Assembly (NCBI GenBank): GCA_029865945.1
Contig: JARXAH010000016.1
Span: 1 to 64,000 of the forward strand
Length of the DNA stretch: 64,000 nt
Origin: Bacteriovoracaceae bacterium
GTDB taxonomy: Bacteria; Bdellovibrionota; Bacteriovoracia; Bacteriovoracales; Bacteriovoracaceae
Direction: 5' to 3'
Position 1 is the stretch's first letter. The number at the start of each line of letters is the position of its first letter. The translations under genes and the position numbers were made by a program. Positions 43,674 through 62,425 of the stretch are shown in pieces. A model generated the notes under the pieces. That model had not been told where the DNA came from, did no database searches, and was given only the letters and a program-made list of their open reading frames with translations.

Positions 43674-43685
43674 AATGGCGGGCGC

Positions 43686-44865: not shown

Positions 44866-44968
44866 ATGATTTATTAAATTGAAGTCTTATCTAAGGTTAA
44901 AGTCTATTATAAATCCTAGATTTTTAATAAATAAGTAAAAATGATGAAGTTCACAAAAAAATAATTTT

Positions 44969-46054: not shown

Positions 46055-46450
46055 TGAAATTATTTACACCAAAAAAATCGCCTCCATTATATTTTAACTT
46101 ATAGTGAAGATAAATCTCTTAGTTTTGAAAATGGTATATATTGCCCTTAAAATTCTTTTTTTCAATACTTAAGTAAAATAGTTGTGCCAATCTGGCTACC
46201 CTAAAAATGAAAGGACTTTTCTGAACCATGGTAAGGAATTATGAAATCGTGAATTTTAGCTATGATTTAATCTATAAATCTTAATTAATATAATTATATT
46301 TATTAGCAGTTCTTCTTGGGTCCTAAGCATGAAAATTGAGAGGAGCATAATTTTTATTGTCCATAAAACCAACGAATAGTCCGTTGATTTTATGACTTTT
46401 TCAGCGGAGTGTATGTTGATTTTAAAAAAACTAAATGGTATCATATACCT
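46055..46450. other. 396-base non-coding stretch with inverted repeat and promoter
   Basis: CATAAAACCAACG (46362-46374) and CGTTGATTTTATG (46382-46394) pair 12 of 13 around a 7-nt loop. The promoter of the 46451 gene follows (46416-46444). Nothing else recognised. Confidence 0.5.
46416..46450 (+). promoter_or_regulatory. Leaderless-type promoter with palindrome (gene 46451)
   Basis: TTGATT (46416-46421), 17-nt spacer, TATCAT (46439-46444), then ATACCT and ATG 46451. The palindrome GGTATcatATACC (46437-46449) covers the -10. Confidence 0.6.
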
Positions 46451-47611
46451 ATGTATACGAGAATTTTAAATTTATCTGACCTTGTTGAGAAAAAGTCTTT
46501 TTTTCTTTTTGGCCCTCGCTCCACCGGTAAAAGTACTCTCTTGAAAAATGAATTTGGGGAAATCTCAACCATTAATCTGTTATCGAATGACACCTATCTT
46601 ACTTTACTGGCCAGACCTTCCTTGTTAAGGGAAATGGTCAGTGCCATTAAAGCAAAAACGTCCCATCGTCGATTGCCGATCATTATCGATGAAGTTCAAA
46701 AAATACCTTCACTTCTAGACGAAGTGCATTATTTGATTGAAGAAAAAAAATATAAATTTATTCTCACGGGCTCAAGTGCTCGTAAGTTAAAGAGGAGCGG
46801 AGTAAATTTATTGGCGGGTCGAGCGTGGGAGGCACAGTTATTTCCTCTCGTTTCAAAAGAGATACCAACTTTTAATTTAAAAAAATATCTTTTAGTGGGA
46901 GGACTTCCTCAAGTCTACCCTAGTAAGTATCCGAGGGAAGAATTAGATGCCTATGTTAATACTTATTTGAAAGAAGAAATTAAAGAAGAATCCCTTGTGC
47001 AAAATTTATCTCATTTTTCAAGATTCCTAAAATTTGCCTGTCTCGCCAATGCTGAGCAAGTTAATTTTGCGAAAATGAGTAGTGATGCAGAATTACCTGC
47101 AAGTACAATAAAAGGATATTTTGAAATTTTGCGCGATACTTTTTTGGGCTTTATTCTTGAGCCATGGAAAGAATCGAAGAAAAGAAAGGCCATCGCAACC
47201 GCTAAGTTTTATTTTTTTGACATAGGTGTCGCAAATTATTTGCGAGGTGTAGAATCGATTACTGAAGGTAGTTCCGATTTCGGAAAATCGCTAGAACATT
47301 TTATCGCTATGGAGATTCGCGCCTATTTATCTTACCACCGTATAAAAAAAGAACTTTGTTTTTGGAGGACTCTACAAGGAGATGAGGTGGATTTTATAAT
47401 TGGTAATGAAGTGGCGATTGAAGTGAAGGGTTATCGAAAAGTGAATGAGCGAGATCTTAAAGGTTTATTAAAATTAAAAGAAGAGAAAATTTTGAAACGT
47501 TTTTATTTTGTATCTCTAGATAATAATGAGCGCATAACAGATAATCAAATTCATATTCTTGATGTGTATCGATTCTTAGATTTGCTTTGGTCGGGAAAGC
47601 TGATTTCGTAG
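46451..47611 (+). CDS. AAA ATPase with DUF4143 domain (pair E/F)
   Basis: 386 residues from ATG 46451. Walker A FGPRSTGKSTLL, Walker B IIIDEVQKIPSLLDEV, sensor LTGSSARKLKRSGVNLLAGR, winged-helix-like SSDAELPASTIKGYFEILRD, and PD-(D/E)XK-like GDEVDFIIGNEVAIEVKGY. Intact paralogue of the frameshifted gene at 43715. The 14 extra codons upstream are rejected because the promoter overlaps them. Confidence 0.88.
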   Translation: MYTRILNLSDLVEKKSFFLFGPRSTGKSTLLKNEFGEISTINLLSNDTYLTLLARPSLLREMVSAIKAKTSHRRLPIIIDEVQKIPSLLDEVHYLIEEKKYKFILTGSSARKLKRSGVNLLAGRAWEAQLFPLVSKEIPTFNLKKYLLVGGLPQVYPSKYPREELDAYVNTYLKEEIKEESLVQNLSHFSRFLKFACLANAEQVNFAKMSSDAELPASTIKGYFEILRDTFLGFILEPWKESKKRKAIATAKFYFFDIGVANYLRGVESITEGSSDFGKSLEHFIAMEIRAYLSYHRIKKELCFWRTLQGDEVDFIIGNEVAIEVKGYRKVNERDLKGLLKLKEEKILKRFYFVSLDNNERITDNQIHILDVYRFLDLLWSGKLIS

Positions 47612-47781
47612 TAATCCAAGAAAAATTTCATTGCACAAAATTTTAGAAGGAGGAATAGGGAAAGTTCTATAGAAAGACCCTATACCATACTTTTTTAGGA
47701 GTGTTTTTTTTAAATTATTTGCTAGAGATAATATTTAATTTATACATTTATTTTTTTATTTTGTTTAATTTTTTATTTGGT

Positions 47782-48222
47782 TTAATTTTTAGAAAGCGGA
47801 AGTCGCATACAAGTAGAAATGGACTTTGCAACGATCGTTCCGTCCAACATCGTAACTGTTGCTTCCACTACGCCTATTGATTTTCCATTTTTCAGTACGG
47901 CCGCATGAGAGATAAGTTTGCAATCCGTGTTAATCATTTTGAGTAAATTTATTTTTAGTTCAATTGTGCCGAATACTTCTGTATCTGGTAAAAGCGATAG
48001 ATAAGCGATTCCCATGGAGTGGTCCGCGAGCGAGGTTACTGCGCCTCCGTGGAGTGCGCCGAGGGGATTGGCCAACTGTAAAATGTTAACATCCATTTCA
48101 ACCGTTGCAGTTCCGCTTCCTATTTTTGTTAACTGCATGCCGAGTAATTTTGCGTAAGCGGTTTGCGGAAATTCACCAGTAATAAGTTTTTGAAAATGAT
48201 CCATTCTTAAACTATTGGTCAC
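47782..48222 (-). CDS. PaaI-type hotdog-fold thioesterase
   Basis: 146 residues. NPLGALHGGAVTSLADHSMGIA is the PaaI/YbgC-like active-site segment, and GTIELKINLLKMI the following strand. Hydrolyses acyl-CoA thioesters in the family; the substrate is unknown. A housekeeping-type gene inside the island. The ~170 bases downstream are very T-rich. Confidence 0.88.
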   Translation of the reverse strand: MTNSLRMDHFQKLITGEFPQTAYAKLLGMQLTKIGSGTATVEMDVNILQLANPLGALHGGAVTSLADHSMGIAYLSLLPDTEVFGTIELKINLLKMINTDCKLISHAAVLKNGKSIGVVEATVTMLDGTIVAKSISTCMRLPLSKN

Positions 48223-48416
48223 GTCGAATCTCCTATTAAAGTATTAAATTGCTAAGCATTATTAAAAAGTATTTCATTTTCTATGTCATGGAAAAATTCA
48301 GTCGAAACATGCTTTAAATGCTGAACTTGTAGATCATGAAAAAATGGTGTTGGTAATTTTTAAGAAATGTGATATTTTTAGCACGCCAACTTAAGAAAGA
48401 TTACAGGATCATTTAA

Positions 48417-48695
48417 ATGAAAATTAGTAAAGTGGCCAAACAACTATCAGATGATCTTGGATTAAGCCATGTTGATGCTTACATTATGGAGCTTAAGACG
48501 AAACTTTATAATAGAAGCGCCGATCTAATTAAATCTTCGAAACTAACTCATGAGCAGATTGCTAAACTTATTGGAACTTCTAGAAGTAGGATTAGTCGCA
48601 TTGCCAATCACGGAGAAAATAATGTTTCCTTTGAGTTGCTCATTAAACTCATTGCTGTTCTAGAAGGAAAACCTGCAATTAAATTTGCGGTCTAA
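48417..48695 (+). CDS. XRE-family HTH protein, orphan antitoxin-like
   Basis: 92 residues. HTH at about 45-65 (LTHEQIAKLIGTSRSRISRIA), followed by NNVSFELLIKLIAVLEGKPAI. This shape is that of HigA2/RelB-linked Xre antitoxins. No toxin gene is adjacent upstream (194 empty bases) or downstream. AGGATC lies upstream of the ATG. Confidence 0.8.
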   Translation: MKISKVAKQLSDDLGLSHVDAYIMELKTKLYNRSADLIKSSKLTHEQIAKLIGTSRSRISRIANHGENNVSFELLIKLIAVLEGKPAIKFAV

Positions 48696-48800
48696 AAAAT
48701 TTGCTGGAAGTTGGAGAGTAAAATTTAAGATCGAAATATTTGATGAATTTTAATCTAGGGCGAAGTGCGCAAAAGGGACGCGTGAATTATTAGGCATTCA

Positions 48801-49115
48801 TTAAGCTACTTCGTTAATTATAATTTCACCCGCAATCCCAGCTTTATGAAGTTGATCTTGAAGCGCATACTTAGCAAAAGTTTTCGCTGGCATCTTAAGT
48901 GATTGGGAAAACAAGATAGCTCTCTCAACACTAACAATTTTTCTTCCCTTTTCAATGTTGCATAGATCTTGCTTTGAAATACCAAGAAGCTCGGCCATCT
49001 CTGTTTGTGAATACTCTTGCGTTACACGTAAGGAATGAAGCATTTCTCCAAAGCTAATTGGCCCCGTAATTTTTTTGATGGCAGCTTTGGCCCTTACATT
49101 ATTTTTTATACTCAT
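48801..49115 (-). CDS. HigA-like antitoxin, XRE family
   Basis: 104 residues with an HTH at about 35-58 (YSQTEMAELLGISKQDLCNIEKGR). It overlaps the HigB-like toxin gene by 17 bases in the toxin-first order of higBA. It probably binds the repeats near the operon promoter and blocks the toxin. Confidence 0.87.
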   Translation of the reverse strand: MSIKNNVRAKAAIKKITGPISFGEMLHSLRVTQEYSQTEMAELLGISKQDLCNIEKGRKIVSVERAILFSQSLKMPAKTFAKYALQDQLHKAGIAGEIIINEVA

Positions 49116-49385
49116 GGTGATTAACCTCCATCACTTCAACAGTGATACAATTAGTTTGCTCATTTATAAAATAAATTACACGCCAGCTTCTAGAGAGAGA
49201 TGAAGATCGCTGTCCTTTTCGATCTCCTTTTAAGGCATGATCGCGATATCCTTTTACTTTTTGCATGGTCGTAAAACCCTCACTTTCAATAATTTCTACC
49301 CATAGATCAAATTGAATTAAAATGTGCTTGGGAATTTTTTTCAAATCCCTGTTTGCCTTTCTACTTAAAAAACCACAGCGTTCAT
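49099..49385 (-). pseudogene. HigB/RelE-like toxin, frameshifted near the start
   Basis: The C-terminal frame has SRKANRDLKKIPKHILIQF, GYRDHALKGDRKGQRSSSL and WRVIYFI, the HigB mRNA-interferase pattern. That frame has no ATG with a ribosome site. ATG 49385 (AGAGG upstream) reads MNAVVF and then stops; one extra T in the T6 run (A6 at 49367-49372 on plus) would give MNAVVFLSRKANRDL, the expected toxin start. The longer TTG frame (to 49428) would start on the -35 hexamer. So either the toxin is off, or the base is missing by error. Confidence 0.75.
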
Positions 49386-49389
49386 ATAA

Positions 49390-49428
49390 CCTCTTTTTTA
49401 GTATACTTTTTTGGTGTACTTTTGTCAA
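49390..49428 (-). promoter_or_regulatory. Consensus promoter, direct repeats and ribosome site of higBA
   Basis: Minus strand: TTGACA (49423-49428), 17-nt spacer, TATACT (49400-49405), then AGAGG (49390-49394) and ATG 49385. Two direct repeats GTACACCAAAAAA and GTATACTAAAAAA lie over the spacer and -10 and are likely antitoxin operators. Confidence 0.75.
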
Positions 49429-49612
49429 TCTGAATTTATTATTAATACTTTAGTAAAACCAATTATTTGAAATAACGGGTTGTTGGGCGAGTAAACACCA
49501 AGCGCTAAATATAAAAATTTTTGGTGTCATCAACCAAGAATATTTTTTACTGGTAAATTATAGGTAATAAGAATTAAAGTGAGGAAATTTTAAATTTCGT
49601 GAGGGACATTTT

Positions 49613-50005
49613 ATGTCAGACGTTTCTCAAATTTCCAAATTAAGATCGGCCGTCATTCAGAAACAGGAAATCATTTTGAATAAACTTACTCAGTTGCCAT
49701 ACCAGGAAGTGATGAAGCTTTTGGCGAGTTTATCGTCCCTTGTCATTAATCTTGATATGGCATTGATCGAAGTAGAAAATAAGTGCAATAAATTTTTAGT
49801 TTCAGAATTGGAACGTGACCCTAGGGCCACCTTTTCAAAAGGCGAAGCTGCTCTAAAGAGTTCGGAAATTTATATGACCTATAGAAATATTCTATCTCTC
49901 AAACAATGTGCCTCCCGTGGACTAGGTTTCGCTAGAATGCACGCACAGTATTTATTAAAACTAAAAACCCACAATGAGGAATCAGAAGCTAATAGTGACG
50001 AATGA
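49613..50005 (+). CDS. Small helical protein, unknown function
   Basis: 130 residues, predicted mostly helical, no membrane span or signal. Features ERDPRATFSKGEAALKSSE and RNILSLKQCASRGLGFARM. Not recognised. Start ATG 49613 follows GAGGGAC. It is followed 41 nt later by the DUF2786-like gene, possibly co-transcribed; both feel plasmid- or phage-like. Confidence 0.55.
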   Translation: MSDVSQISKLRSAVIQKQEIILNKLTQLPYQEVMKLLASLSSLVINLDMALIEVENKCNKFLVSELERDPRATFSKGEAALKSSEIYMTYRNILSLKQCASRGLGFARMHAQYLLKLKTHNEESEANSDE

Positions 50006-50046
50006 TAAGATTTAAGTTAAACTCACGATAATTCTAAGGATGTAAA

Positions 50047-50499
50047 ATGGATGAAATTGAGCTAATTCGAAAATTAAAATTAATTGAGGCGCTTCACCAA
50101 GGATCAACGACCGCCGGTGAAAAAATGGCCGCGTCTGAAGCGATACGTCGCATTCAAGATCGATTAAATGAAAGCCAAGCTGAGAGTCGTGAACGAGTTG
50201 TTGAATATAAATTTGGGATGTCTGATGAATGGAATAGAAAATTATTTAAAGCACTTTTGAGGCGTTATGGAGTCGAACCTTATCGATACGAGCGGCAAAG
50301 ACACACGACTGTTATGGCAAAAGTATCAAAACGTTTCGTTGATGATGAGCTTTGGCCACAGTATTTAGAAATGTCCAAAGTACTTGAGACCTATCTTACG
50401 CACGCAACTGATCGAATCATTTCTGAAGCCGTACACAAAGATAATTCAGAAGCAAAGGTCGTGGCCGAACCTGATCAATTGCCGTTTTTTGAAAATTAG
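50047..50499 (+). CDS. DUF2786-like N-terminal protein, unknown function
   Basis: 150 residues. IRKLKLIEALHQGSTTAGEK and the following helix resemble the DUF2786 start (IRKLLALA..gt..GE). The C-terminal half has RRYGVEPYRYERQRHTTVM, a basic, possibly nucleic-acid-binding segment. No function known. AAGGATG upstream. The stop overlaps the convergent antitoxin gene by 4 bases. Confidence 0.6.
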   Translation: MDEIELIRKLKLIEALHQGSTTAGEKMAASEAIRRIQDRLNESQAESRERVVEYKFGMSDEWNRKLFKALLRRYGVEPYRYERQRHTTVMAKVSKRFVDDELWPQYLEMSKVLETYLTHATDRIISEAVHKDNSEAKVVAEPDQLPFFEN

Positions 50500-50756
50500 A
50501 AATTAAATTTTATTCTACGCAAATTTTTAAGACGAGCTTGATAGAGATCCCAAAATTCTGCACTTATTTCAAAGATTTTTTCAAGTGCAATGGCAAAGGC
50601 CGCAGAAATGCCGCGTTTGTCATTACAAATTTCTGAAATTTTTCTCTCGGCGCAATCTATTTTTTCAGCAAGCCATTTTTGACTTAAGCCCCGTTCTTCT
50701 AAAATCATGGCCTTAAGAAATTTTCCTGGCGATTTTCTAACAGATAATTCTATCAA
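50496..50756 (-). CDS. HigA/VapI-like antitoxin, orphan
   Basis: 86 residues. HTH in LSQKWLAEKIDCAERKISEICNDKRGIS, followed by FAIALEKIFEISAEFWDLYQ, the ending typical of the HigA addiction-module antidote family. A HigB partner is not found on either side. It may have solitary regulatory or anti-addiction roles. Confidence 0.82.
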   Translation of the reverse strand: MIELSVRKSPGKFLKAMILEERGLSQKWLAEKIDCAERKISEICNDKRGISAAFAIALEKIFEISAEFWDLYQARLKNLRRIKFNF

Positions 50757-51062
50757 GATAGTCTCCTATTTCAAATTGTTGTTATCTGTTTTTTATTCAT
50801 TTCGCATACGTCATACCATTTCGGATCATGAAATTTTCTTCCGTTATCTTTAGTGATCCGATTTATCCTGCCTATTAAATTGGTCAACCATTTTGCAACG
50901 AAGTGGAGGCAATCGTTTGAAATTGGGTCATTGCCCTTGTTTTTCGCTAACTCATTGTATTCTAGAAAAAACGATAGGGGAGAATCTTTTGCCTATCTAG
51001 GGAAATAGTTGCGAACGCTCAATAATAAAGTAAGGAGCAGTATCGCTCTATGGGGCCATTGC
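50757..51062. other. 306-base gap without recognised features
   Basis: Separates the divergent antitoxin gene and the Thr/Pro-rich lipoprotein gene. I see no clear promoter, repeat or small gene; AAGGAG at 51032-51037 has an out-of-frame ATG after it. Confidence 0.4.
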
Positions 51063-52532
51063 ATGATAGCTACATTAATTAATCGTTTCACTTTTGTAAC
51101 GTTTAGACCAAAACTCTTTTTCACATTGTTGATGTTGTTCACTCTCTTTTCGTGTGGACAAAATTCTCACGTAAGAACCATCGATGATAATAACGTAGTG
51201 CCAGCGCCTCCGATCTTACCTGGCAACTCTACAGCGACATCAACGCCAACGGCGACATCAACGGTTGATCCAGATAGTACGGCGACGCCAACACCCACTT
51301 CTACTTCCACATTTAATTCTACTTTCACTCCGACAAGTACACCCACAAGTACAGTAACACCTAGTGGAGCAACGAGTACGCCAACATCTACGTCAACATC
51401 TACGCCAACTTTTACGGCGACGAATACACCTATCTCAAGTACCTCAACGCCAACACCATCATCGACACCAACGAATACAAATACTCCGACCCAAACTCCT
51501 ACTCAAACAAATACGCCATCGCCAACTCCGACTTATACACAAACGCCGACTCAATCACCGACGGCAACATTGACCTCAACACCTACGCCAACGTCAACTG
51601 CGACTTCGACTCCAACTTCAACGCCAACAAAAAAGGCAAACGATACAGCAACTCCAACGTCCACAGCGACGCCGACAAGTACTTTTACGGCAGCTCCACC
51701 GACGTCAACTCCGACTGCGACCAACACACCTACGATAACGCCGACGCCGACCAATACTCCGACGTGCGCGTTGGATGTTTATCCAGGCAATACAGTGTTT
51801 CAAAAATTAGTCATTACGCAGACGTCTTGGGAAGGCCCACTTGTGAATGGTGGAAATTATGATACGAGAGCGCAAGGGCCTGCGAGTACGTTATCTAAAA
51901 ATCACATGCGCTATGCTTTTCTCAGTGGCAACTTTCAAAAAACTTTAGCGATCTCCATTGTCTCTCCGCCTTTTATGCCGGGGATGGGTGTGAGTCCACT
52001 TACGATGGGGAATGGATTTAATGCGCCTAGTAGTGGAAATCCCATTTTCTTAAATCGTGAGATCAGTGCTTTCGCTTGGATCTCAAGTCAAAATCCACCA
52101 ACAAATTGTTACTCAAGTCAGATGTATGGATGTAGTCAGGCCTATACCATTTATCGATTTGCTCCGTCGCAAAATTATTCTGGAAATAATTATGATTGGT
52201 TTCGTAGTCAATCACAGCGATACGCACACGTGGCGAATAATGGTGTGAATTATGTGAGTGAAGGAATTGTGGGGGCCGTGCCGGAATTATCGCCACCGTC
52301 TTATCCACCATCCAATGCGTCGGTTAACATTTCAAGAAATGGAAACATTGTTACCATTTTTATTGGTGGCCAAGCATCGCAAGCTGATATCACGGGATGC
52401 GGAATGCAAAATGGTTTATATCTCGGATTTAGTTTAGGCGTTAAGCAAAGTGGTGTCGCTCATCAATACTATCCGTGGGGACAACACTTTCAGTTCAATC
52501 AAAATGGTGATCCTAAGTTGCAGTATTACTAA
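51063..52532 (+). CDS. Surface lipoprotein with long Thr/Pro/Ser repeat linker
   Basis: 489 residues if started at ATG 51063; the frame also allows TTG 51009. The hydrophobic start ends in LFTLFSCGQ, a lipobox. Then comes a ~170-residue low-complexity stalk of T-P-T-x-T-S-T repeats, as in heavily Thr-rich secreted proteins of this phylum. A C-terminal domain (~260 residues) is Gly/Ser/Asn/Tyr-rich with six Cys. The stalk probably projects the C-terminal domain from the outer membrane. Function unknown. Confidence 0.75.
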
Positions 52533-52717
52533 GTGCAAATTGGGAAGTGCGAATTCTGAATTGCGAATAGCGGACTTTGAATTGCAAGTTGCGAAGTGGT
52601 GAAGAAAGAAAATTGAAAGAAAAAATGAAAAGAATGAAAAGAAAGTAGAGAGCGCGGGCGTAGGGAAGTAAGTTGTAAAGATTCATTTGTTAAGAGTAGA
52701 GTGTCGGAGAGTAAAAA

Positions 52718-55543
52718 TTGAAACGTTTAGATAGCAATAAAATAAATAAATCATCGATAGATAAAAAAAACAAATTGAATAAGTTAATTTGTCAAGGAAA
52801 TCTCATAACGAAGGGGTGTTGGCATTTTTTTTTCTTTTACTTTTTTTTAATTTTTATTTCACTGAAAACATACTCCAAAACTTGTAAGGAAATATTAGCT
52901 GATTACAAAACTGTTATCACTGAAAATACAGCTGCATCAAATGAATATGATGAATTATCAAATCAGTGTAGCGGATTTAACAACGAAGCTGGCAACTTTC
53001 TTTTAAATAACTATTCAATTCCTTTGAAAACTAGCTTCTCTACATTACAAACAATTGCTATAGAAATTGAAAAAGATATGAGCAATACAATGATAATTGT
53101 TCCACCTGATTGTGGGGATATACGGAGTCAAAATTATGAATCTAGTAGACAAGAATTTATAAAAGCAAAAAATAATATAAGCACTTCAGCAAATTTTGTT
53201 AAGTATCAAAAAGCAAATTGTAAAAATATAATTCAAGTTGGACAAAATACAAATGATACTTTATGTCAAAAAGCTGCCGTGAAAATTCAAGGGAAAATGA
53301 GTGCATACGAATATGAAACTAGAAACTGTTCAAGTTGGATTGAGTCTTGTCATAAACAAAAAATAGAAGGCGATTATCAAGCAGTCCATTCAGAAATAAC
53401 AAATATTTCAATGGCAATTAAAGATTTAGGAGATTTAATTAAATACCTTGGTTCCATTAATGACAATGATTGTGGAAATAATGTAAAAGATGCAGCAAGT
53501 CTAATTGATTGCCCAGCAAATGATAAAGATTCAAGTACACCAAAAAAAAATTATTGTGATCAAATTAAATTGATTAATGAAAATATCAGTAAACTAAATA
53601 AGCAAACAAATAATTGTATATTGCCAGCCGATATAGGCAATTGTAATGCAACTGCGAGATTTAATGACGGTTCCCCTGAAGATTATGGCAATGAAAATCG
53701 TCAGAACAGTAACATTTTCATGTATTGCTTTGATATTAAAAAAATACAACTTTCAGGATCATTACAAAATAATTTTCCTGCATTTTGCAGGCAATTTTTT
53801 CCATTATTTCCTGAAATGTCTCAAATAAATTACCCTGGATTGTTACGTTGGGCATCTTCCGAGGGCGCAATTTGTAATGGAACTGATGAGTCAAACGTAT
53901 CAACGCAAATACCATATGTAACAAGAGTTACTAAAGAAGGAACGAAAGTTGTAAATAAGAAAGTAAGAGGCGAATTGTTCTCAGCTTTTCTCTCAAAAAA
54001 CCTCGCACTCTGCGAAGGCATGAATCGCTTCTACAACTACAAACTTAAAAATAATTTTAATCAAGCAGCAGAAAATTACAAAGCCAATCCTGAGCAAGCT
54101 TCTGACACAAAACTTGATACGGGTTTCGGAAAAGATTTAGCAAAAATAGAATGCAAGGAAACACTCTACAGTGTAGATAATTTTGCTTGTTTACGTGCAA
54201 AGGTTGCCTTGGGATCATATTCCGCAGGAACGATTGCTCAAAAAGTTAGATCGAGTAAAGAACTTCAAAAAGCAGCAGATGAACAATTAGATAAAGCAAA
54301 AAATATTGTTGATTCTGGTACCGGTGATAAAACAGTAGAGTTAACCCTTAACAGTTATGCTGGAAATATAAAGGCACAAAACATCTCAATGGAGTTGGCC
54401 GATAAAGAAATTCGTGAAATATGGTGGGCGCTTGGTACTTTCGGGGCCATCATCGGAATCTGGCCAATAAAGTTTACTGCTTTACATAAATGTAAAATAT
54501 CAGCAGCTGATTCACCATTTACTCCAGGCAATCCTGAAAACAGTTGTGGTGTTGCATTAAATAACTCATCTACCTATCCACTCATCTTACCAAATGATGC
54601 TGTGAGAAATGTTCTCCTTAAAACGATTCTCGAATTATGGACTCTCATAAATACAACTAAGCAAAATAAATCAGCGGCCGAAAAGGCCAAACTAGATTTG
54701 TTAGCGCAAGAAGATGCTTTCAAGCGAAGCCTTTGGACTCCCACACCAGGCCCAGCGGATCCAACACCAACAACAGAAGTCGCGCAAATAAATTGTACCA
54801 ACAATCCCTACATGATTGGGTGTGGTGGTGCGACTGGCGGTTATAAAGAATCACCAAATACTCTCGGTACGACAAGTGGTGTGATTGAGACTCCAGAAAA
54901 TGGTGATGGCAATCCCAATTCTCCTGGAGGCTCGGTGCCTGGCAACATTGCAGATCTCGATAAAAAAGAAGTCACTTGGGAAGACAAAGCTTCACCGGGT
55001 GGCGGTGGAGGAGGTGGCGCCGGAGCTGGTCAAGGTGGGCCAGGAAGTTCTGCCGGTGGCAGTAGTGGAGGAGGTGGAACTTCTCCAGGTGCAGCACCAA
55101 CACAACCTAACGGAAATGTTGCAGATAAATCTGGTGGCGGCGGATCAGTTTTGGAACGCTCCGCAAATTACGGAGGAAGGGGAGGCCGCTCAACATTGAC
55201 CACTGCTAGTGGATACGGATCTAATGGCCTGGGGCGAAGAGGGGGAGATGATGAAAAAAATCCTTTCGGTAAAATGTTTGGCGATAAAGATGGCGCTGAT
55301 GGTCGTGGCGGAATTTTTGGATCAGGCGGTGATGGAGACGGATCCGGAACTGATCGTTCCATTGCTGAAGCGAGCGATGATGACAACTTAGGCTACAGTA
55401 ATTTATTTGAACGCATTACCAAAACCGCTAACGCTTACTATCATAAGGGGCGCGTAGGAAAAGCGGCGCCGGGCAGTGGTAATAGCAGTGGTAAGGGAAG
55501 TAGTGGAAGCGGCAACAACAAGAAAAATCCTAGAGACGCATAA
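52718..55543 (+). CDS. Large exported protein with Cys-rich helical body and Gly-rich C-terminus
   Basis: 941 residues, TTG start at 52718 with GGAGAG upstream. N-terminal basic region, then a signal or anchor helix (about 35-55, HFFFFYFFLIFISLKT). The body (about 60-640) is Lys/Asn-rich with ~25 Cys, probably disulfide-bonded. A second hydrophobic stretch lies at about 565-585 (WWALGTFGAIIGIWPI). The tail (about 730-941) is Gly/Ser-rich and ends GRVGKAAPGS...NNKKNPRDA. A broken relative of this tail lies at 56895-57011. Confidence 0.7.
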   Translation: MKRLDSNKINKSSIDKKNKLNKLICQGNLITKGCWHFFFFYFFLIFISLKTYSKTCKEILADYKTVITENTAASNEYDELSNQCSGFNNEAGNFLLNNYSIPLKTSFSTLQTIAIEIEKDMSNTMIIVPPDCGDIRSQNYESSRQEFIKAKNNISTSANFVKYQKANCKNIIQVGQNTNDTLCQKAAVKIQGKMSAYEYETRNCSSWIESCHKQKIEGDYQAVHSEITNISMAIKDLGDLIKYLGSINDNDCGNNVKDAASLIDCPANDKDSSTPKKNYCDQIKLINENISKLNKQTNNCILPADIGNCNATARFNDGSPEDYGNENRQNSNIFMYCFDIKKIQLSGSLQNNFPAFCRQFFPLFPEMSQINYPGLLRWASSEGAICNGTDESNVSTQIPYVTRVTKEGTKVVNKKVRGELFSAFLSKNLALCEGMNRFYNYKLKNNFNQAAENYKANPEQASDTKLDTGFGKDLAKIECKETLYSVDNFACLRAKVALGSYSAGTIAQKVRSSKELQKAADEQLDKAKNIVDSGTGDKTVELTLNSYAGNIKAQNISMELADKEIREIWWALGTFGAIIGIWPIKFTALHKCKISAADSPFTPGNPENSCGVALNNSSTYPLILPNDAVRNVLLKTILELWTLINTTKQNKSAAEKAKLDLLAQEDAFKRSLWTPTPGPADPTPTTEVAQINCTNNPYMIGCGGATGGYKESPNTLGTTSGVIETPENGDGNPNSPGGSVPGNIADLDKKEVTWEDKASPGGGGGGGAGAGQGGPGSSAGGSSGGGGTSPGAAPTQPNGNVADKSGGGGSVLERSANYGGRGGRSTLTTASGYGSNGLGRRGGDDEKNPFGKMFGDKDGADGRGGIFGSGGDGDGSGTDRSIAEASDDDNLGYSNLFERITKTANAYYHKGRVGKAAPGSGNSSGKGSSGSGNNKKNPRDA

Positions 55544-55607
55544 TCATCTGACAGATAAATCTTAATTTACTTTTGGCCTCCAAAGTAAATTAAGGAAATC
55601 TCTTAAT

Positions 55608-56768
55608 TTACTTTTTTCTAGTTTTCATTGTGGTTTCGTTGTCAAATAATGCGAGATAAGCACTAAATACATAAATTCTATTCCGATGCCCGCCAGTCAT
55701 TTCATGTAGAATACCCATTTCTAGAAATTCTTTAGTAAGTGAGATGGCAGATTTTAATGTGATATCTAAACTTTTTTCGACTTCGCTCGCTGTAATGTTA
55801 GGTTTCTTATAAAGAAGCTGAATAAAATCTTTTCCCTTCTCGGCCCTACGACCCATTTTAAGAATTTTTCGATCAATTTGCTGGGAAAGTTTGATAATTT
55901 CTTTAAAAGTGAGGATACCATTTTCAGTCGTTTCAATAACTGCATTCAGAAAAAATTTAATCCAGTGGGACATATCATTTTGCTCTCTTACTCTTGAAAG
56001 TGCCTGGTAGTAAGAAGTTTTGTGCTTTTCAAAAAAAGCTGAAAGATAGAGACACGGACTTCTTAATAAGCCGTTACTGACAAGATAAAAAGTGATTAGA
56101 AGTCTACCGATTCTTCCATTACCATCAAGAAATGGATGGATAGTTTCAAATTGGTAGTGTGCGATGGCCACACGAATCATGTGAGGAACATTGGTCTCAA
56201 AATTATGAAGAAAATTTTCGAGGTCACCCATTAGATCGGCAACATGGGTATGATGTGGTGGAATGTAGACAGCATCAGTCAATGAACTTCCTCCGATCCA
56301 GTTTTGACTGGATCTAAATTCTCCAGGTGCCTTGTGAGAACCGCGTACACCCTTTAAAAGAATTTCATGCATTTCCTTTAAGAGGCGATTTGAAAGTGGT
56401 AACTTTTCAAGTTTTTTGATTCCGTGATTCATCGCCTTGATATAATTTTGTACTTCTTGCCAGTCATTACGTTTTTCAGGTGATACATTCTCCTTCGACA
56501 AAAGCGCTTCATCCATTTCAGTCTTCGTTCCTTCTATCCTGCTAGAATAATGGGCCTCCTTCACGATGTGCATTTGAATAAAGAGGTCAATGTTTGGAAT
56601 GAGAAGAGAATAAGCATTTAGTTCTCCAATACGACGAATGGCCGTTTCAAGGAGAACGTTGACTTGCCCCTCTTCCCAAACCCAATCATGATTAATATGA
56701 ACTGGTCGAAAACTTTTATATTGGTACTGCTGATCAAATGTTCCAGATATGAAATCTTTTAAGTTCAC
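55608..56768 (-). CDS. Fic family protein (class II, inhibitory helix before Fic domain)
   Basis: 386 residues, GTG start with AAGGAG 5 nt upstream. The active-site loop HPFLDGNGRIGRLL marks an AMP-transferase. SSRIEGT near residue 80 is the inhibitory (S/T)xxxE(G/N) motif upstream of the Fic core, so the enzyme is self-inhibited. The C-terminal ~90 residues look like a winged helix (PNITASEVEKSLDITLKSAI). Targets unknown. The island context suggests an addiction or stress role. Confidence 0.9.
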   Translation of the reverse strand: MNLKDFISGTFDQQYQYKSFRPVHINHDWVWEEGQVNVLLETAIRRIGELNAYSLLIPNIDLFIQMHIVKEAHYSSRIEGTKTEMDEALLSKENVSPEKRNDWQEVQNYIKAMNHGIKKLEKLPLSNRLLKEMHEILLKGVRGSHKAPGEFRSSQNWIGGSSLTDAVYIPPHHTHVADLMGDLENFLHNFETNVPHMIRVAIAHYQFETIHPFLDGNGRIGRLLITFYLVSNGLLRSPCLYLSAFFEKHKTSYYQALSRVREQNDMSHWIKFFLNAVIETTENGILTFKEIIKLSQQIDRKILKMGRRAEKGKDFIQLLYKKPNITASEVEKSLDITLKSAISLTKEFLEMGILHEMTGGHRNRIYVFSAYLALFDNETTMKTRKK

Positions 56769-56894
56769 TAGTACTCCTTAGGCATTTTTTCTTATAAAAA
56801 AAATTCTAAATTTAAATTTCAAGTTTATCACGGAGTCAAGAACGGAGCAAAGTTGAAATAAGCGATTATCGATATTCATGGTCTTGCGGTATTT

Positions 56895-57011
56895 ATGTCT
56901 AAAGACGATATTACCGAGAGAGAAATAGGAAAATTAAGAATGAAGTTTTTTGGTCGCGTCGGAAAGGTGGCGCTGGGAATTGATCGAAGCAATGACAAGA
57001 AAAATCCCTAG
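56895..57011 (+). pseudogene. Remnant of a C-terminal tail like that of 52718-55543
   Basis: A 38-codon frame ends in GRVGKVALGIDRSNDKKNP, matching the GRVGKAAPGS...NNKKNP end of the large protein 1.4 kb upstream. No convincing start or upstream domain remains. It is in the same orientation, so a tandem duplicate has probably decayed or been cut away when the Fic gene arrived. The rest of the 56769-57143 gap holds only the 57144 promoter. Confidence 0.5.
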
Positions 57012-57108
57012 GAAACTTAGTTAGGATTTTGTTTATTTTATCACTAATTTCAGAAAAATAAATAATAAATATAACCTCTTTAATGGGTGTTGAAACCTTT
57101 TTAAGAGG

Positions 57109-57143
57109 TTGATGTGTATTCAATAATGTAATACAATTCCATT
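57109..57143 (+). promoter_or_regulatory. Leaderless-type promoter with palindrome (gene 57144)
   Basis: TTGATG (57109-57114), 17-nt spacer, TACAAT (57132-57137), TCCATT, ATG 57144. GTATT...AATAC arms (57116-57120, 57130-57134) overlap spacer and -10. A further 8-bp repeat AACCTCTT/AAGAGGTT (57073-57080, 57103-57110) touches the -35. Confidence 0.6.
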
Positions 57144-57497
57144 ATGCTAAACAAAATATTAGGCAGTGAAATTGCTATGAAGGCCATGTTTCATCTCATT
57201 CATTATCACGAGATATATCCTTCTGCTGTGGCAAAAGATTACAAACTCACCTTAAGTGCTGTTCAAAAACAATTTGCCCGCTTCGAAGAGGCCGGGATCC
57301 TTGTTTCTAAACTTGTTGGAAAAACGCGAGTTTATATGTTTAATAAAAAGTCAAAAATATCAAATGCCTTTTTTGAGTTTGTAAAACTTTACTACGATGG
57401 TTTAAGTATTTCTGATAAAGAAAAAATATTCTCCGAAAGGAGACGCCCTCGTAGACTAGGAAAGACCGTTGTTAAGAAGATAGTGCTTGGAAATTAA
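57144..57497 (+). CDS. Winged-helix DNA-binding protein
   Basis: 117 residues. The N-terminal ~70 residues form a winged helix (YPSAVAKDYKLTLSAVQKQFARFEEAGILVSKLVGKTR). The C-terminus is basic (RRRPRRLGKTVVKK). It precedes a broken nucleotidyltransferase and the HEPN/MNT pair, and is the likely regulator of that group. Own promoter appears leaderless. Confidence 0.75.
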   Translation: MLNKILGSEIAMKAMFHLIHYHEIYPSAVAKDYKLTLSAVQKQFARFEEAGILVSKLVGKTRVYMFNKKSKISNAFFEFVKLYYDGLSISDKEKIFSERRRPRRLGKTVVKKIVLGN

Positions 57498-57513
57498 TTT
57501 AACAACTTGCTAA

Positions 57514-57768
57514 GAAAAAGAACTATGGCATGATGTCGCGGTTCACTTAAAGAAAAAAGGAATCGACACCGTTTTAGTCGGAGGAGCAGTTGTTTCAATA
57601 TATACCGATGGTGCCTACCAATCAGGTGATCTTGATTTTGTGAAACTAGACTTATTCACAAGTAAGCTCGAAGACGCTATGAAAGAGATAAACTTTAAAA
57701 AACTTGGCCGTACTTACAAACTTGAAACGTTAACTTGGTGTATGATAGGAAAAATATATGTCGAATAA
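57514..57768 (+). pseudogene. Nucleotidyltransferase-like fragment without start codon
   Basis: An open frame of ~84 codons reads WHDVAVHLKKKGIDTVLVGG, AVVSIYTDGAYQSGDLDFVK. The VGGAVVSIY...DLDF pattern is that of nucleotidyltransferase-fold proteins (DUF6036/AbiEii-like). It opens right after TAA at 57511-57513, and no ATG/GTG with a ribosome site precedes the domain. One extra A in the A5 run at 57514-57519 would shift the upstream frame. Its stop overlaps the HEPN start. Confidence 0.6.
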
Positions 57769-58159
57769 ATCACGTGCGTTTGATTGGTTCCTTCAGGCCC
57801 AAGATGATTGGAAATTCGCCAATTTTGGAATGCAAAATTCTCATTTTTCTCAAGTTTGTTTTATTGCACAGCAAGCTGCAGAAAAAGCAATTAAGGCCCT
57901 TGCTTATGATAGAAATTTAGAAGTGAAAGGTCATTCCATTACCATTATTGCAGGCATATTAAAAGTTAATGGTGAAATTGAAGCTGCAGGAAGACTATTA
58001 GATCAGTATTATATTTCAGCAAGGTATCCTGATTCGCTTCCAGCTGGTGCTCCTTTTCAATTTATTTCTAAAGATCAGGCCCAAGAGGCCCTCGCTAAGT
58101 CATGGATTGTTTTAGAATTTGTTCAAAAATATTTAAATAATAAATCTCATGAAGACTGA
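57758..58159 (+). CDS. HEPN domain protein (toxin of HEPN/MNT pair)
   Basis: 133 residues. Helical HEPN domain: ARAFDWFLQAQ-like start, FIAQQAAEKAIKALAYDRN, the R...H pattern in DRNLEVKGHS, and DQYYISARYPDSLP. HEPN proteins of this type are RNases held inactive by MNT partners. AGGA precedes the ATG. It overlaps the MNT gene by 11 bases. Confidence 0.88.
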   Translation: MSNKSRAFDWFLQAQDDWKFANFGMQNSHFSQVCFIAQQAAEKAIKALAYDRNLEVKGHSITIIAGILKVNGEIEAAGRLLDQYYISARYPDSLPAGAPFQFISKDQAQEALAKSWIVLEFVQKYLNNKSHED

Positions 58160-58511
58160 AGTAAAAGCAAAAGAAGTCCCTATTTTTTTCAAGCAAGATC
58201 TCGCTTCAATGATGAAACAGTTACATTCCTTGCTTATGGATAAAAAAATTCAAGAATCCTATCTCTTTGGAAGTGTGGCCTTGGGGACGCAAAATAGTGA
58301 TAGTGACTTAGATATGATTATTGTGATGGATACTACTTTGCCGTTTTTTAATCGTCATCAACTTTTTCCTGAACTCTATCGGCTTGGTGTTCCGATTGAT
58401 CTTCTCATCTATACGCCAGATGAATTTAAAAAACTAAAGTTTGAAGGTCAAAATTCAAAAGTAGGATTTTGGAGTTCCGTGGTAAAGCAAATGGTAAAAA
58501 TCTATCCGTAA
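58149..58511 (+). CDS. MNT-type minimal nucleotidyltransferase (antitoxin)
   Basis: 120 residues. GSVALGTQNSDSDLD is the GSx10DxD active site of minimal nucleotidyltransferases. In the characterised pairs, MNT inactivates HEPN by attaching AMP residues. Order HEPN then MNT with overlap, as in known modules. Confidence 0.9.
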   Translation: MKTEVKAKEVPIFFKQDLASMMKQLHSLLMDKKIQESYLFGSVALGTQNSDSDLDMIIVMDTTLPFFNRHQLFPELYRLGVPIDLLIYTPDEFKKLKFEGQNSKVGFWSSVVKQMVKIYP

Positions 58512-58570
58512 ATTTTATGCGGGTTTTTCCTCTATTTTATGAATCCGTGAAAGGGCAAAAATGGCCGTCT

Positions 58571-58607
58571 TTGACAATTTGCGGTTGACAGTAGTAATCT
58601 GCCAAAT
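58571..58607 (+). promoter_or_regulatory. Leaderless-type promoter (gene 58608)
   Basis: TTGACA (58571-58576), 18-nt spacer, TAATCT (58595-58600), GCCAAAT, ATG 58608. A second TTGACA at 58585-58590 lies in the spacer. No ribosome site fits. Confidence 0.5.
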
Positions 58608-59804
58608 ATGTGGATTAAAAGAGATATTTCTCATATTTTACAAAAAAATCAAGATTTTATTCAAATCTTAATTGGGCCAAGACAATGCGGAAAATCGAGT
58701 CTTCTTCACAACTTAAGTAAAGATTTCGGCCAAAATGGTGAGGAATTCGTTGAACTAAGTATGGACGACTTAAATCTCAGAAAACTGGCCTTAGAAGATC
58801 CCCAAGGCCTTCTCGATCAATATGACGGAAAAAAACTTATCATCGATGAAGCGCAACTCGCACCAGAAATTTTCTATGCTTTGAAAAGAAAAATTGATCT
58901 CCTCAAACGGGCCCATCACAGACGAGAAATTATGTTTCGCCTCACAGGATCAAATCAAATATTGATGGATAGGTCAGTGAAAGAAAGTTTGGCGGGACGG
59001 GCCAGCTATTTTGATCTCAATACCCTTTCGGTCGCAGAAATTCTGGCCGCAGGTGGAAACACATCGATGGCAGAAATTTTATTTAAAGGTGGATGGCCAG
59101 AATTGTACACTGACCCCACGATCTCCACTAAAAAATACTTAGATGACTACATCAGAACTTATGTGGAAAAAGATATTGTTCTTGCGGCCGGGATTCAAAA
59201 ACAAAATGAGTTTATTCGCTTTGCTCAGCTGCTTGCAGGAAGAACAGGTCACCAATTAAATTTTTCAGAATTGAGTAAAGAGGTAGGTGTCAGTAATGAA
59301 ACGATTCATGATTGGACATCGATCTTAGAGCGAATGAAAATGATCGCCCTAGTGCCTCCCTATTTTTCTAACCAATCTAAGCGACTAGTTAAGGCACCGC
59401 GAGTCTATTTTCTTGATACCGGTTTGGCGTGCCGCCTGCAAGGGCATAGTGAGATTGCCCCACTCTTGAGCTCTCCCCAGTTGGGCCACTTATTTGAAAC
59501 TCTGGTTTTTGGTGAGATCTATAAAACGGCAAAAAATTTCGATCGCGATTGGAAAATTTTCCACTGGAGAACGCGTGACGGTGAAGAAGTGGATTTTCTC
59601 ATCCAAATGGAAAATCAAAAATTTCTTTTTCTCGAGGCAAAAGTTTCGTTTCAAATGTTAGACGGCAACAAAAAATTGGTGGAAGCAAAAAAAGTGTTTA
59701 AAGATGGTCTACCTCCTCGTTTTTTATGCCACATGAGTGGAGATCAAATACTAGGTCACGCAGTGCCGATAAAATATCTCAGAGATTTTTTACTTAACCA
59801 ATAG
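58608..59804 (+). CDS. AAA ATPase with DUF4143 domain (pair A/B)
   Basis: 398 residues. Walker A GPRQCGKSSLL, Walker B LIIDEAQLAPEIF, sensor LTGSNQILMDRSVKESLAGR. Winged-helix-like EVGVSNETIHDWTSILERMK, then GEEVDFLIQ...FLFLEAKVS (D...ExK). Shares long identical stretches with 42483-43673 such as GSNQILMDR and RVYFLDTGLACRLQG. Followed by a 9-bp tandem repeat. Confidence 0.88.
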   Translation: MWIKRDISHILQKNQDFIQILIGPRQCGKSSLLHNLSKDFGQNGEEFVELSMDDLNLRKLALEDPQGLLDQYDGKKLIIDEAQLAPEIFYALKRKIDLLKRAHHRREIMFRLTGSNQILMDRSVKESLAGRASYFDLNTLSVAEILAAGGNTSMAEILFKGGWPELYTDPTISTKKYLDDYIRTYVEKDIVLAAGIQKQNEFIRFAQLLAGRTGHQLNFSELSKEVGVSNETIHDWTSILERMKMIALVPPYFSNQSKRLVKAPRVYFLDTGLACRLQGHSEIAPLLSSPQLGHLFETLVFGEIYKTAKNFDRDWKIFHWRTRDGEEVDFLIQMENQKFLFLEAKVSFQMLDGNKKLVEAKKVFKDGLPPRFLCHMSGDQILGHAVPIKYLRDFLLNQ

Positions 59805-59805
59805 T

Positions 59806-59856
59806 ATTACTTGCATTACTCGCATTACTCGCATTACTCGCATTACTAGTATTAGT
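59806..59856. repeat. 9-bp tandem repeat, about 5.6 units
   Basis: ATTACTTGC, three perfect ATTACTCGC units, ATTACTAGT, ATTAGT, starting 2 bases after the stop of the 58608 gene. It lies just before the operator array of the next ATPase gene. Confidence 0.85.
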
Positions 59857-59880
59857 GAAATAATGGTTAAAAAAATGGAT

Positions 59881-59958
59881 CGTAAATTTTACTAAGTAGT
59901 AAATTTTACGATCGTAAAATTTGACAACTAGTAAAATTTACGCGATACTGATCTCAAT
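59881..59958 (+). promoter_or_regulatory. Operator array and leaderless-type promoter (gene 59959)
   Basis: TTGACA (59921-59926), 17-nt spacer, GATACT (59944-59949), 9 nt, ATG 59959. Four related sites: GTAAATTTTAC at 59882 and 59899, and the opposite orientation GTAAAATTTGAC at 59914 and GTAAAATTTAC at 59931. A perfect 22-bp palindrome spans 59901-59922, and 14-bp arms at 59881-59894 and 59929-59942 are exact reverse complements. The last site fills the spacer. Confidence 0.8.
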
Positions 59959-61179
59959 ATGAAGCTTAATCACAAGCAATATCTATGGTCTCTCAAAAAT
60001 CCACTTTTTCCTGAGCATATGTCTTTTATCGCTGGGCCAAGACAGTCTGGAAAAACTACCATGGCACTGCAATTCCTAAAAGAAGCAGGTCTTGATAAGA
60101 CCGATTATTATTTTAATTGGGACAGGATAGATGTTCGTCGCAAATTTAAAGACAACATTGATTGGCTTTCCACTCTGAAAAAGGAAAAAAAAGGTGGCAA
60201 GCGACCTATTCTCATCTTCGATGAAATTCATAAAGTAAGACAGTGGAAAAGATTACTAAAAGGAATTTATGACGAATACCGCAAAGATTTTCAATTCATC
60301 ATCACTGGAAGTGGGAGGTTGGATTATTTTCAGCGAGGAGGAGATTCACTTGCAGGTCGATTTGATCTCTATCAACTGATGCCTTTTAGTCCAGCAGAAT
60401 GCACGAATGAAAAATCCTCTTTCGTCCATCTTACGATTGAAAAAATTTTGGCCGCAAACCCACTACATGATGATTTGATTACTCACTGGGAAATGACAGG
60501 TGGTTTTCCGGAACCATTTTTATCTGGAAGTGAACAAAAATCTAGATATTGGTGGAAGCAGTATTTAATTCGGGTGACGGAAGAAGATTTGCGTGATCTT
60601 ACGAGATTGGAATCAGTGGATTTAATGAGAGACATACTGGCCATCCTTCCTGCAAAAATATCTTCGCCACTATCCATTGAGTCGGTTCGGCGCGATGTTG
60701 AAACTTCTTTTGCTACTGCAAAACGATATTTGGCCACTTTAAATCAGCTCTACATCCTTTTTGAGGTTTCTCCTTACTCAAAAAAAATTCATCGTGCTAT
60801 TGCTAAAGAAAAAAAATGTTATTTCTACCATCATCCAGCAGTCATTGATGATGGTGCCCGCTTTGAAAATATGGTGGCACTCATTTTAAAGAAATGGGTT
60901 CTTGAAAGAAATGAAAAGGCCGAAGGCGAATTTGTACTAAATTATTTACGAGATCAAGACAGAAGAGAAGTAGATTTTATTTTATTAAAGGAAGGTGTCC
61001 CTTACTTCCTCATTGAATGCAAGCGAAGTGATACGTCACTCTCACCTAGTTTAGTTTTTTATTCCCATAAATTAAATATTCCTGGAATTCAGGTGGTCCG
61101 TTCTAAAGGATACAACCTAAAAAAAAGTGATCTATTGGCCGTTGTCTCCATTCATTACTTGGCGAGTGTTTTAGGGTAA
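59959..61179 (+). CDS. AAA ATPase with DUF4143 domain (pair C/D)
   Basis: 406 residues. Walker A GPRQSGKTTMA, Walker B ILIFDEIHKVRQWKRLLKG, sensor ITGSGRLDYF, and GGDSLAGRF. PD-(D/E)XK-like RREVDFILL...FLIECKRS. The SIESVRRDVETSFATAKRYL segment corresponds to the winged helix. Closest relative 61286-62425. Preceded by a rich operator array, so likely self-regulated. Confidence 0.88.
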   Translation: MKLNHKQYLWSLKNPLFPEHMSFIAGPRQSGKTTMALQFLKEAGLDKTDYYFNWDRIDVRRKFKDNIDWLSTLKKEKKGGKRPILIFDEIHKVRQWKRLLKGIYDEYRKDFQFIITGSGRLDYFQRGGDSLAGRFDLYQLMPFSPAECTNEKSSFVHLTIEKILAANPLHDDLITHWEMTGGFPEPFLSGSEQKSRYWWKQYLIRVTEEDLRDLTRLESVDLMRDILAILPAKISSPLSIESVRRDVETSFATAKRYLATLNQLYILFEVSPYSKKIHRAIAKEKKCYFYHHPAVIDDGARFENMVALILKKWVLERNEKAEGEFVLNYLRDQDRREVDFILLKEGVPYFLIECKRSDTSLSPSLVFYSHKLNIPGIQVVRSKGYNLKKSDLLAVVSIHYLASVLG

Positions 61180-61224
61180 TGATTTTAAGATATTTTGAGT
61201 AAAATGAGTAAATGGCAGTGCACT

Positions 61225-61285
61225 GTAAATTACTCATGAGTAAATTACACTTGACTGTAATTTACTAACAGTCGTAAAATAAGGA
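61225..61285 (+). promoter_or_regulatory. Operator array and leaderless-type promoter (gene 61286)
   Basis: TTGACT (61251-61256), 18-nt spacer, TAAAAT (61275-61280), AAGGA, ATG 61286. GTAAATTAC at 61225 and 61240 and its reverse complement GTAATTTAC at 61257 (in the spacer). A 14-bp perfect palindrome TTACTCATGAGTAA (61230-61243) joins the first two. AAGGA could serve as a short ribosome site only if transcription starts further upstream. Confidence 0.65.
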
Positions 61286-62425
61286 ATGACAAAAAACATA
61301 GGTCGATATTTAGTTCCGGTCATGAATGAATTTTTAGAAAATCGAATGGTATTTGTCGGCGGGCCAAGGCAAGTAGGGAAGACGACCATGTGCCTTAGTT
61401 TTCTTCGCAAACCCACAATAAATAGTGAGGCCTACTTAAATTGGGACGATTTGCCATCGAGAGATCAGTTAAAAAATGCGATACTGCCCGTCAGTGAAAA
61501 GATTATTTGCATAGATGAAATTCATAAGTATAAATTGTGGCGCTCGCTCATTAAGGGTATGTACGATAAGAAAAAAAATATTTATAAATTTATTGTCACT
61601 GGATCGGCGCGGCTTGATCATTATCGTAAAGAGGGAGATTCATTACTGGGCAGATACCGTTATTTGCGCCTCCATCCTTTGTCGCTTGGCGAGCTTAAAA
61701 AATATGATTCCACTACCATCCAGCTTCTACTCAAATTTGGGGGATTTCCGGAACCCTTTTTTAATGGAACAGAGAAAAATTGGAAACTTTGGCAGAGAGA
61801 AAGAAGTTATCGAATCATCTACGATGACATCAGAGATTTAGAGCGAGTCAAAGAAATTTCTTCACTTGAGTTATTAGCAGATGCGTTGCCGCAAAGAGTG
61901 GGGTCACCACTTTCCATAAATAATTTAAGTCAGGATCTTGAAGCTCATCATGCTACCATGAAAAATTGGTTACAAATTCTTGATAATGTTTATTTCTCCT
62001 TTCGGATCCCCCCTTTTGGTGCGCCTAAGCTACGGGCCGTCAAAAAAGAACAAAAACTTTATCTCTGGGATTGGAGTTCCATCGAAGATATTGGTATCAA
62101 ATTTGAAAACATGGTGGCCTCTCAGTTATTAAAATATTGTCACTTCTTGGAAGATTCTGAGGGAGAGAAAATGGAATTGCGGTTTTTGCGAGATCACGAC
62201 AAGAGGGAAATTGATTTTGTTGTTCTCAAAAATAAGATTCCCATTTTTGCTGTGGAATGCAAAACAGGCGAGCGATCTTTATCGCCACATATAAAATATT
62301 TTCAAACAAGAACAAGCATTAAGCACTTCTATCAAGTTCATCTTGGTACAAAACATCAGAAAATTGATGACCAAACAACCATCATCCCATTCGGACAATT
62401 CTGCAAAGAGTTAAATCTGCCCTAG
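61286..62425 (+). CDS. AAA ATPase with DUF4143 domain (pair C/D)
   Basis: 379 residues. Walker A GGPRQVGKTTMC, Walker B IICIDEIHKYKLWRSLIKG, sensor VTGSARLDHYRKEGDSLLGR, PD-(D/E)XK-like KREIDFVVL...FAVECKTG. The NNLSQDLEAHHATMKNWLQI block is the winged-helix region. Paralogue of the preceding gene. The dispersed structured repeat begins 6 bases after its stop. Confidence 0.88.
   Translation: MTKNIGRYLVPVMNEFLENRMVFVGGPRQVGKTTMCLSFLRKPTINSEAYLNWDDLPSRDQLKNAILPVSEKIICIDEIHKYKLWRSLIKGMYDKKKNIYKFIVTGSARLDHYRKEGDSLLGRYRYLRLHPLSLGELKKYDSTTIQLLLKFGGFPEPFFNGTEKNWKLWQRERSYRIIYDDIRDLERVKEISSLELLADALPQRVGSPLSINNLSQDLEAHHATMKNWLQILDNVYFSFRIPPFGAPKLRAVKKEQKLYLWDWSSIEDIGIKFENMVASQLLKYCHFLEDSEGEKMELRFLRDHDKREIDFVVLKNKIPIFAVECKTGERSLSPHIKYFQTRTSIKHFYQVHLGTKHQKIDDQTTIIPFGQFCKELNLP

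Follow-up and report, generated by a model that had tools for sequence, protein, structure and literature searches.

Array and encoded ATPase in the window

The window is the whole 64,000-nt stretch of DNA analyzed here, positions 1 to 64,000 of contig JARXAH010000016.1 from a Bacteriovoracaceae bacterium. A gene at 59959–61179 encodes an ATPase whose Pfam matches to AAA_14 (PF13173, 2.5e-27) and DUF4143 (PF13635, 1.4e-20) score 95.9 and 74.1 bits against curated cut-offs of 27 and 28.1. The PADLOC model PDC-S01 matches residues 22 to 359 (1.4e-48), which places the protein in that family by HMM. The gene is preceded by a dense set of repeats. The features of the locus are as follows.

59880–59895, + strand: half-site 1 (rightward); four-half-site model, dyad between 59911 and 59912, score 75/96
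59896–59911, − strand: half-site 2 (leftward); four-half-site model, direct 32-bp repeat 59878/59910
59901–59922, no strand: perfect 22-bp palindrome, the central dyad of the array; window scan
59912–59927, + strand: half-site 3 (rightward), overlapping the −35; four-half-site model and promoter scoring
59921–59926, + strand: −35 element TTGACA; best promoter score 10.7, spacer 17
59928–59943, − strand: half-site 4 (leftward), filling the −35/−10 spacer; four-half-site model and promoter scoring
59944–59949, + strand: −10 element GATACT of a leaderless-type promoter, ending 9 nt before the ATG at 59959, without a Shine-Dalgarno sequence
59959–61179, + strand: ATPase of the PDC-S01 family (AAA_14, winged helix, DUF4143); Pfam, PADLOC, AlphaFold model
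60616–60828, + strand: predicted winged-helix segment, residues 220–290; AlphaFold model
60709–60747, + strand: predicted recognition helix, residues 251–263, within the winged-helix segment
60850–61173, + strand: predicted PD-(D/E)XK-fold C-terminal domain, residues 298–405; conservation, model pLDDT 94.1

The first-pass annotation had described an operator array over the promoter of an ATPase gene, and this description holds well above chance. Its four GTAAAWTTTAC-like sites are exact at 59882, 59899, and 59931 and degenerate at 59914 (GTAAAATTTGA); its 22-bp palindrome is perfect (AAATTTTACGATCGTAAAATTT, 59901–59922), the outer 14-nt arms are identical (59881–59894 and 59929–59942), and the sites extend across the −35 and the 17-bp spacer as claimed. 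The palindrome is the longest in the window, where dinucleotide shuffles of the whole window (n = 20) reached 14 to 20. The best inverted repeat upstream of the gene has a z of 10.3, matched by none of 200 shuffles. The same region also consists of two direct 32-bp copies at 59878 and 59910. The array has four half-sites oriented → ← → ←, which lie over the −35 and the spacer in a strict 16/32-bp geometry. A scan of the window for four half-sites with a 16-bp mirror spacing ranked 61237 (76/96) and 59912 (75/96) highest, at the promoters of two adjacent paralogues; the third-best place scored 47, and ten shuffled windows reached 47 to 54. The array and its geometry are near certain to be real. 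Between the stop codon of the upstream paralogue and the array, at 59806–59847, the 9-mer ATTACTCGC is repeated in tandem ~4.7 times. The family half-site GAGTAAT has ATTACTC as its complement, and this tandem array may be an operator relic or a set of spare binding sites.

In the AlphaFold model of the protein (pLDDT 90.9), AAA core, helical segment, and winged helix follow in this order, with the fold of the STAND/MNS-type ATPase SSO1545 (2fna; Z 15.4, rmsd 4.4 over 257 residues). PABY2304 (2qen) shares the same core (Z 15.3; ~255 residues in both cases), and to our knowledge no operators have been described for either protein. Both matches are limited to residues 1 to 298 and leave the C-terminal nuclease-like domain outside. 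Over its whole length, this domain resembles Can2 (Z 9.1), EcoT38I (8.2), and McrC (7.6), and its key residues E337, D339, E353, and K355 are invariant in 20 homologues and nearly invariant in 67. Predicted fold and catalytic residues therefore assign it to the PD-(D/E)XK nuclease superfamily, with putative cleavage activity. A sequence search of the PDB gave only matches limited to the AAA core or the P-loop.

Several AAA_14/DUF4143 genes form an island at 42483–62425, which also holds a SoFic-type Fic gene (55608–56768; PADLOC 4.6e-120) and a HEPN/nucleotidyltransferase pair (57758–58511). At 43715–44865, beside intact paralogues, an AAA_14 gene is split into two reading frames (162 and 177 amino acids) and is apparently a decayed paralogue. 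The following paralogue features were found in the window.

42457–42473, no strand: ATGGAGTGGCAGTCCAT palindrome in the promoter of paralogue 42483–43673; inverted-repeat and promoter scoring
46437–46449, no strand: GGTATCATATACC palindrome over the −10 of paralogue 46451–47611; inverted-repeat and promoter scoring
61205–61268, + strand: four-half-site array of paralogue 61286–62425, dyad between 61236 and 61237; highest score in the window, 76/96
61251–61280, + strand: promoter of the same paralogue, TTGACT (61251–61256), 18-bp spacer, TAAAAT (61275–61280); promoter scoring
61286–62425, + strand: paralogous AAA_14/DUF4143 gene, preceded by a different array of its own; Pfam, 39% identical to the product of the 59959 gene

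All three palindromes that had been quoted for related genes are present, ATGGAGTGGCAGTCCAT and GGTATCATATACC at the places listed and GTAAATTAC at 61225. The wider claim that each related gene carries a different palindrome stands for these genes but not for the nearest upstream paralogue (58608), which has no significant dyad (p = 0.47). At the 61286 gene, the short palindrome is part of more than was claimed, a full 32-bp four-half-site design with direct repeats at 61204 and 61236. The genome contains about two dozen AAA_14/DUF4143 genes. An inverted repeat at p ≤ 0.01 was detected in 14 of 24 upstream regions, a set that includes one gene (L043) probably encoding another kind of AAA+ protein, and the sequences of these repeats are all different. 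The motif GACGCnACTCnnATAACAGAGnGGTGCTGGCA recurs slightly upstream of the operators of several paralogues (L028, L035, and L027, on C15 and C72, two contigs of this genome) and is possibly a small dispersed repeat or an insertion signature.

Geometry and promoter position in the family

Homologues were sampled within the phylum and in 80 genomes that span many phyla. An inverted repeat at p ≤ 0.01 was present upstream of 68 of 134 genes compared to 7 of 120 same-locus controls. The self-similarity of the upstream regions of 243 family genes has a sharp peak at lag 32 alone: autocorrelation over 100 bp was 0.133 ± 0.006 at this lag and ~0 at lags 31 and 33, while in control genes the value at lag 32 was 0.009 ± 0.005. 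Identity of at least 18/30 at lag 32 was seen in 164 of the 243 genes (0 to 8 at other lags). Five of 144 “controls” passed this threshold, but four were misfiled family genes and one was a divergent neighbor sharing the array, leaving 0 of 139 true controls. Four mirrored half-sites were fitted at z > 5 by 192 of 249 genes, with the dyad located between bases in 189 of the 192; the remaining 57 genes lie outside this model. Read outward from the dyad, the family half-site is TGASTAWWTTnnAGTn, of which TGASTAWWTT is common to members across phyla. The palindromes of related genes had been described as different; within the subfamily, the operators are variants of one half-site in one geometry rather than unrelated sequences. 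The first-pass annotation had also held that absence of the array from orthologous loci would count against its reading; arrays of this kind are in fact present at the promoters of hundreds of homologues.

More distant subfamilies also carry dyads at p ≤ 0.01 (20 of 30, 9 of 27, and 17 of 29 genes) but in other layouts. In the A3 subfamily (L353 to L382), the repeat lag is 31 bp instead of 32 (z 4.3), a hint of a second fixed geometry. Dyads are also found in some family members from viral contigs, and one distant viral homologue (L178) has direct-orientation copies of TTTCAAWTGGTCG before its ATPase gene, a different operator layout. Viral scans with three other subfamilies yielded only 1, 1, and 28 relatives. 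Among three plasmid homologues checked, the one from Rhabdochlamydia has a 32-bp array (21/30) and the other two have none. On the Rhabdochlamydia plasmid (L443, 1381–1560), the annotated ATPase start lies downstream of a likely leaderless start at the end of the array, and start codons in the PDC-S01 family may often be misannotated.

The arrays occupy a fixed place on strong predicted promoters. The median promoter score was 10.1 in the family compared to 5.5 in controls, the −35 mostly begins 1 to 2 bp before a dyad, and the distance from the end of the −10 to the ATG peaks at 6 to 8 nt. Shine-Dalgarno sequences precede 7% of genes with near promoters compared to 54% of those with far promoters. 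From this spacing, transcription is predicted to start approximately at the ATG, so the array would be promoter DNA that is not transcribed rather than leader RNA. Inverted repeats as strong as these could fold as RNA, and since 48 of 182 scored promoters lie more than 14 nt upstream, the array may be partly transcribed in some members. A 5′-leader hairpin controlling translation or termination is nevertheless extremely unlikely, for transcription of the window genes and of most relatives is predicted to start at or just before the ATG, downstream of the array; a 32-bp direct period is no requirement of an RNA element, and the outer bases track recognition-helix residues (see below).

The same register bears on what a bound protein would do. 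Activation of its own promoter by the protein would have a precedent in the STAND regulators MalT and IniR, which are activators (IniR: PMC5760070). The half-sites, however, cover the −35 and the −35/−10 spacer and not solely the DNA upstream of them, and promoters with the median score given above are already near consensus, which makes activation quite improbable. Position thus points to repression as the probable effect of the array.

The array could instead be mainly a nuclease target, cut by the PD-(D/E)XK domain, or an element end by which the gene moves. In favor of this, the nuclease-like domain has conserved catalytic residues and may sit near the dyad. Against both possibilities, the array always lies on the promoter in fixed register to the −35, and the 3′ flank contains no copy of it (12.42 of 18 for a gene's own array, 12.30 for those of other genes). 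We consider such a role improbable, and a mobile element with terminal inverted repeats was rejected since no matching 3′ repeat was found.

Covariation of operators with protein residues

Each operator is specific to its gene. In the 3.08-Mb genome, GTAAAWTTTAC occurs 10 times, as often as a control pattern, and clusters only at this promoter, giving no sign of a regulon. The 20-bp core of the 59901–59922 palindrome has its only exact copy there, along with two places with three mismatches, and neither window operator has an exact copy of its dyad core away from its own promoter; elsewhere the cores are absent or at background level, with a few places at three mismatches. No recurrent partner gene was detected in 80 loci: the largest recurrent neighbor cluster was the family itself, followed by a response-regulator-like protein (4 of 80). 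A toxin-antitoxin operon was rejected because of the lack of a conserved partner gene in these loci.

Half-sites are more similar within one gene (0.757) than between genes (0.454), and operator distance correlates with protein distance (Mantel r of ~0.41). Whole-domain Mantel tests singled out no domain, the winged helix included. Covariation was also computed column by column, with the proteins collapsed to 105 clusters. Of 366 columns, recognition-helix residues 250 to 253 ranked highest for operator positions 11, 12, and 13. Positions 1 and 2 were led by wing residue 279 and position 4 by residue 333, the last at all three cluster levels. Strong mutual information of W96 and F340 with position 8 was set aside, as it reflects rare changes in nearly invariant columns.

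The identity of residue 252 is associated with the bases at positions 10 to 13: lysine with TGGA or TAGA (40 of 58), asparagine with TTCA (17 of 22), proline with TAAA or TAAT (15 of 17), and histidine with TGCA (8 of 9). When training was limited to proteins less than 45% identical, residue 252 was the best single column for predicting positions 11 and 12. Position 12 was predicted correctly in 71% of cases (16% from the majority base and 27% from the nearest allowed relative), and position 11 in 60% (35% from either). At position 4, lysine or arginine 333 goes with C and threonine or isoleucine 333 mostly with G. This suggests a contact of the nuclease-like domain with position 4 through residue 333, inseparable from the contribution of wing residues 274 and 278, which predict this base equally well. 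The window proteins combine A252 with Q333 or H333, classes with few examples. The code therefore derives from relatives and, taken alone, gives no prediction for the 59881–59958 array.

As to insulation between paralogues, operators in the same genome are no more different than those of equally diverged proteins from different genomes (matched difference of 0.007 ± 0.007). Operators thus follow protein lineages, and no additional selection for insulation is seen.

These results bear on who reads the array. A separate host transcription factor, with the ATPase a mere client gene, would account for the half-site TGASTAWWTT being common across phyla; it is hard to reconcile with each gene having its own variant that is absent elsewhere in its genome, with the lack of a recurrent partner alongside, or with operator bases that track residues of the adjoining ATPase itself. 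We regard a host factor as very improbable and recognition of the array by the product of its own gene as likely. As judged by covariation, the operators would qualify as those of autorepressors, lying over their own promoters and read by residues of their own proteins. The first-pass annotation had read the locus as the trace of co-diverging self-repressors; the co-divergence is demonstrated computationally, and the repression is suggested by position.

Proposed autorepression and its meaning

We propose, with a probability of about 0.8, that the array serves the gene downstream of it as a private operator and that the encoded ATPase binds it and represses its own synthesis. A STAND-type oligomer would place one protomer on each 16-bp half-site, four per array. 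The recognition helix of the winged helix would read the outer bases, approximately positions 9 to 13 from the dyad, with the wing, and probably also the restriction-endonuclease-like C-terminal domain, near the dyad (positions 1 to 5). Since the promoter has leaderless spacing and its −35 and spacer lie under the half-sites, occupancy of these sites would shut out RNA polymerase. Until its ATPase state changes, such a negative autoregulatory loop would hold a potentially dangerous ATPase-nuclease at low levels. The stoichiometry, release by nucleotide state, and a possible purpose in defense are what we infer from this arrangement. It counts against the proposal that in STAND proteins the winged helix often packs inside the ATPase module instead of on DNA.

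Systems in which a protein represses its own gene through palindromic operators are known. NrdR boxes, a pair of palindromes spaced by about three helical turns on a promoter, resemble the arrays in this pairing, but they belong to an unrelated protein with a shared regulon and a different consensus. Orc1/Cdc6 initiators (2qby and 2v1u among the Foldseek matches) likewise combine AAA+ and winged-helix domains that read duplex DNA; they bind replication origins, whereas here the site would be a promoter array of four half-sites. MalT and IniR have a C-terminal DNA-binding domain of the LuxR type and are activators of other operons, whereas in PDC-S01 the putative reader is the winged helix and the sole target would be the protein's own gene. 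Like the proposed PDC-S01 repressors, both are STAND ATPases that bind promoters (PMC5760070). In the open journal papers searched, we found no report of self-repression for AAA_14/DUF4143, COG1373, or PDC-S01 proteins, and the open literature searched yielded no regulation, operator, or DNA target for PDC-S01. What is new is that a STAND ATPase-nuclease, for which DNA binding is predicted from sequence, has a single-residue code and a leaderless promoter with four sites in a fixed 16/32-bp geometry.

PDC-S01 is a PADLOC candidate single-gene phage defense system (AAA_14 and DUF4143, COG1373) and the fourth commonest prokaryotic defense call, with 9,986 archaeal and 29,494 bacterial loci; the ATPase is fused to a PD-(D/E)XK domain, and its antiviral activity is described as unvalidated (PMC12988326). 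PDC-S01 may comprise many mutually distinct, self-recognizing ATPase-nucleases with private arrays and a code tunable by one residue, whose nuclease near the dyad could also mark and attack foreign DNA carrying a related copy; we hold this extension to be doubtful. Although PDC-S01 is among the commonest candidate defense genes (PMC12988326), its mechanism is hardly touched on in the open papers searched. With a DNA address for each protein, the fixed geometry, and the single-residue code, PDC-S01 becomes open to immediate biochemical testing, and the family offers hundreds of putative natural orthogonal repressor-operator pairs for studies of specificity co-evolution. If the proposal is true, self-repression at leaderless promoters would account for the ability of one genome to carry about two dozen ATPase-nuclease paralogues.
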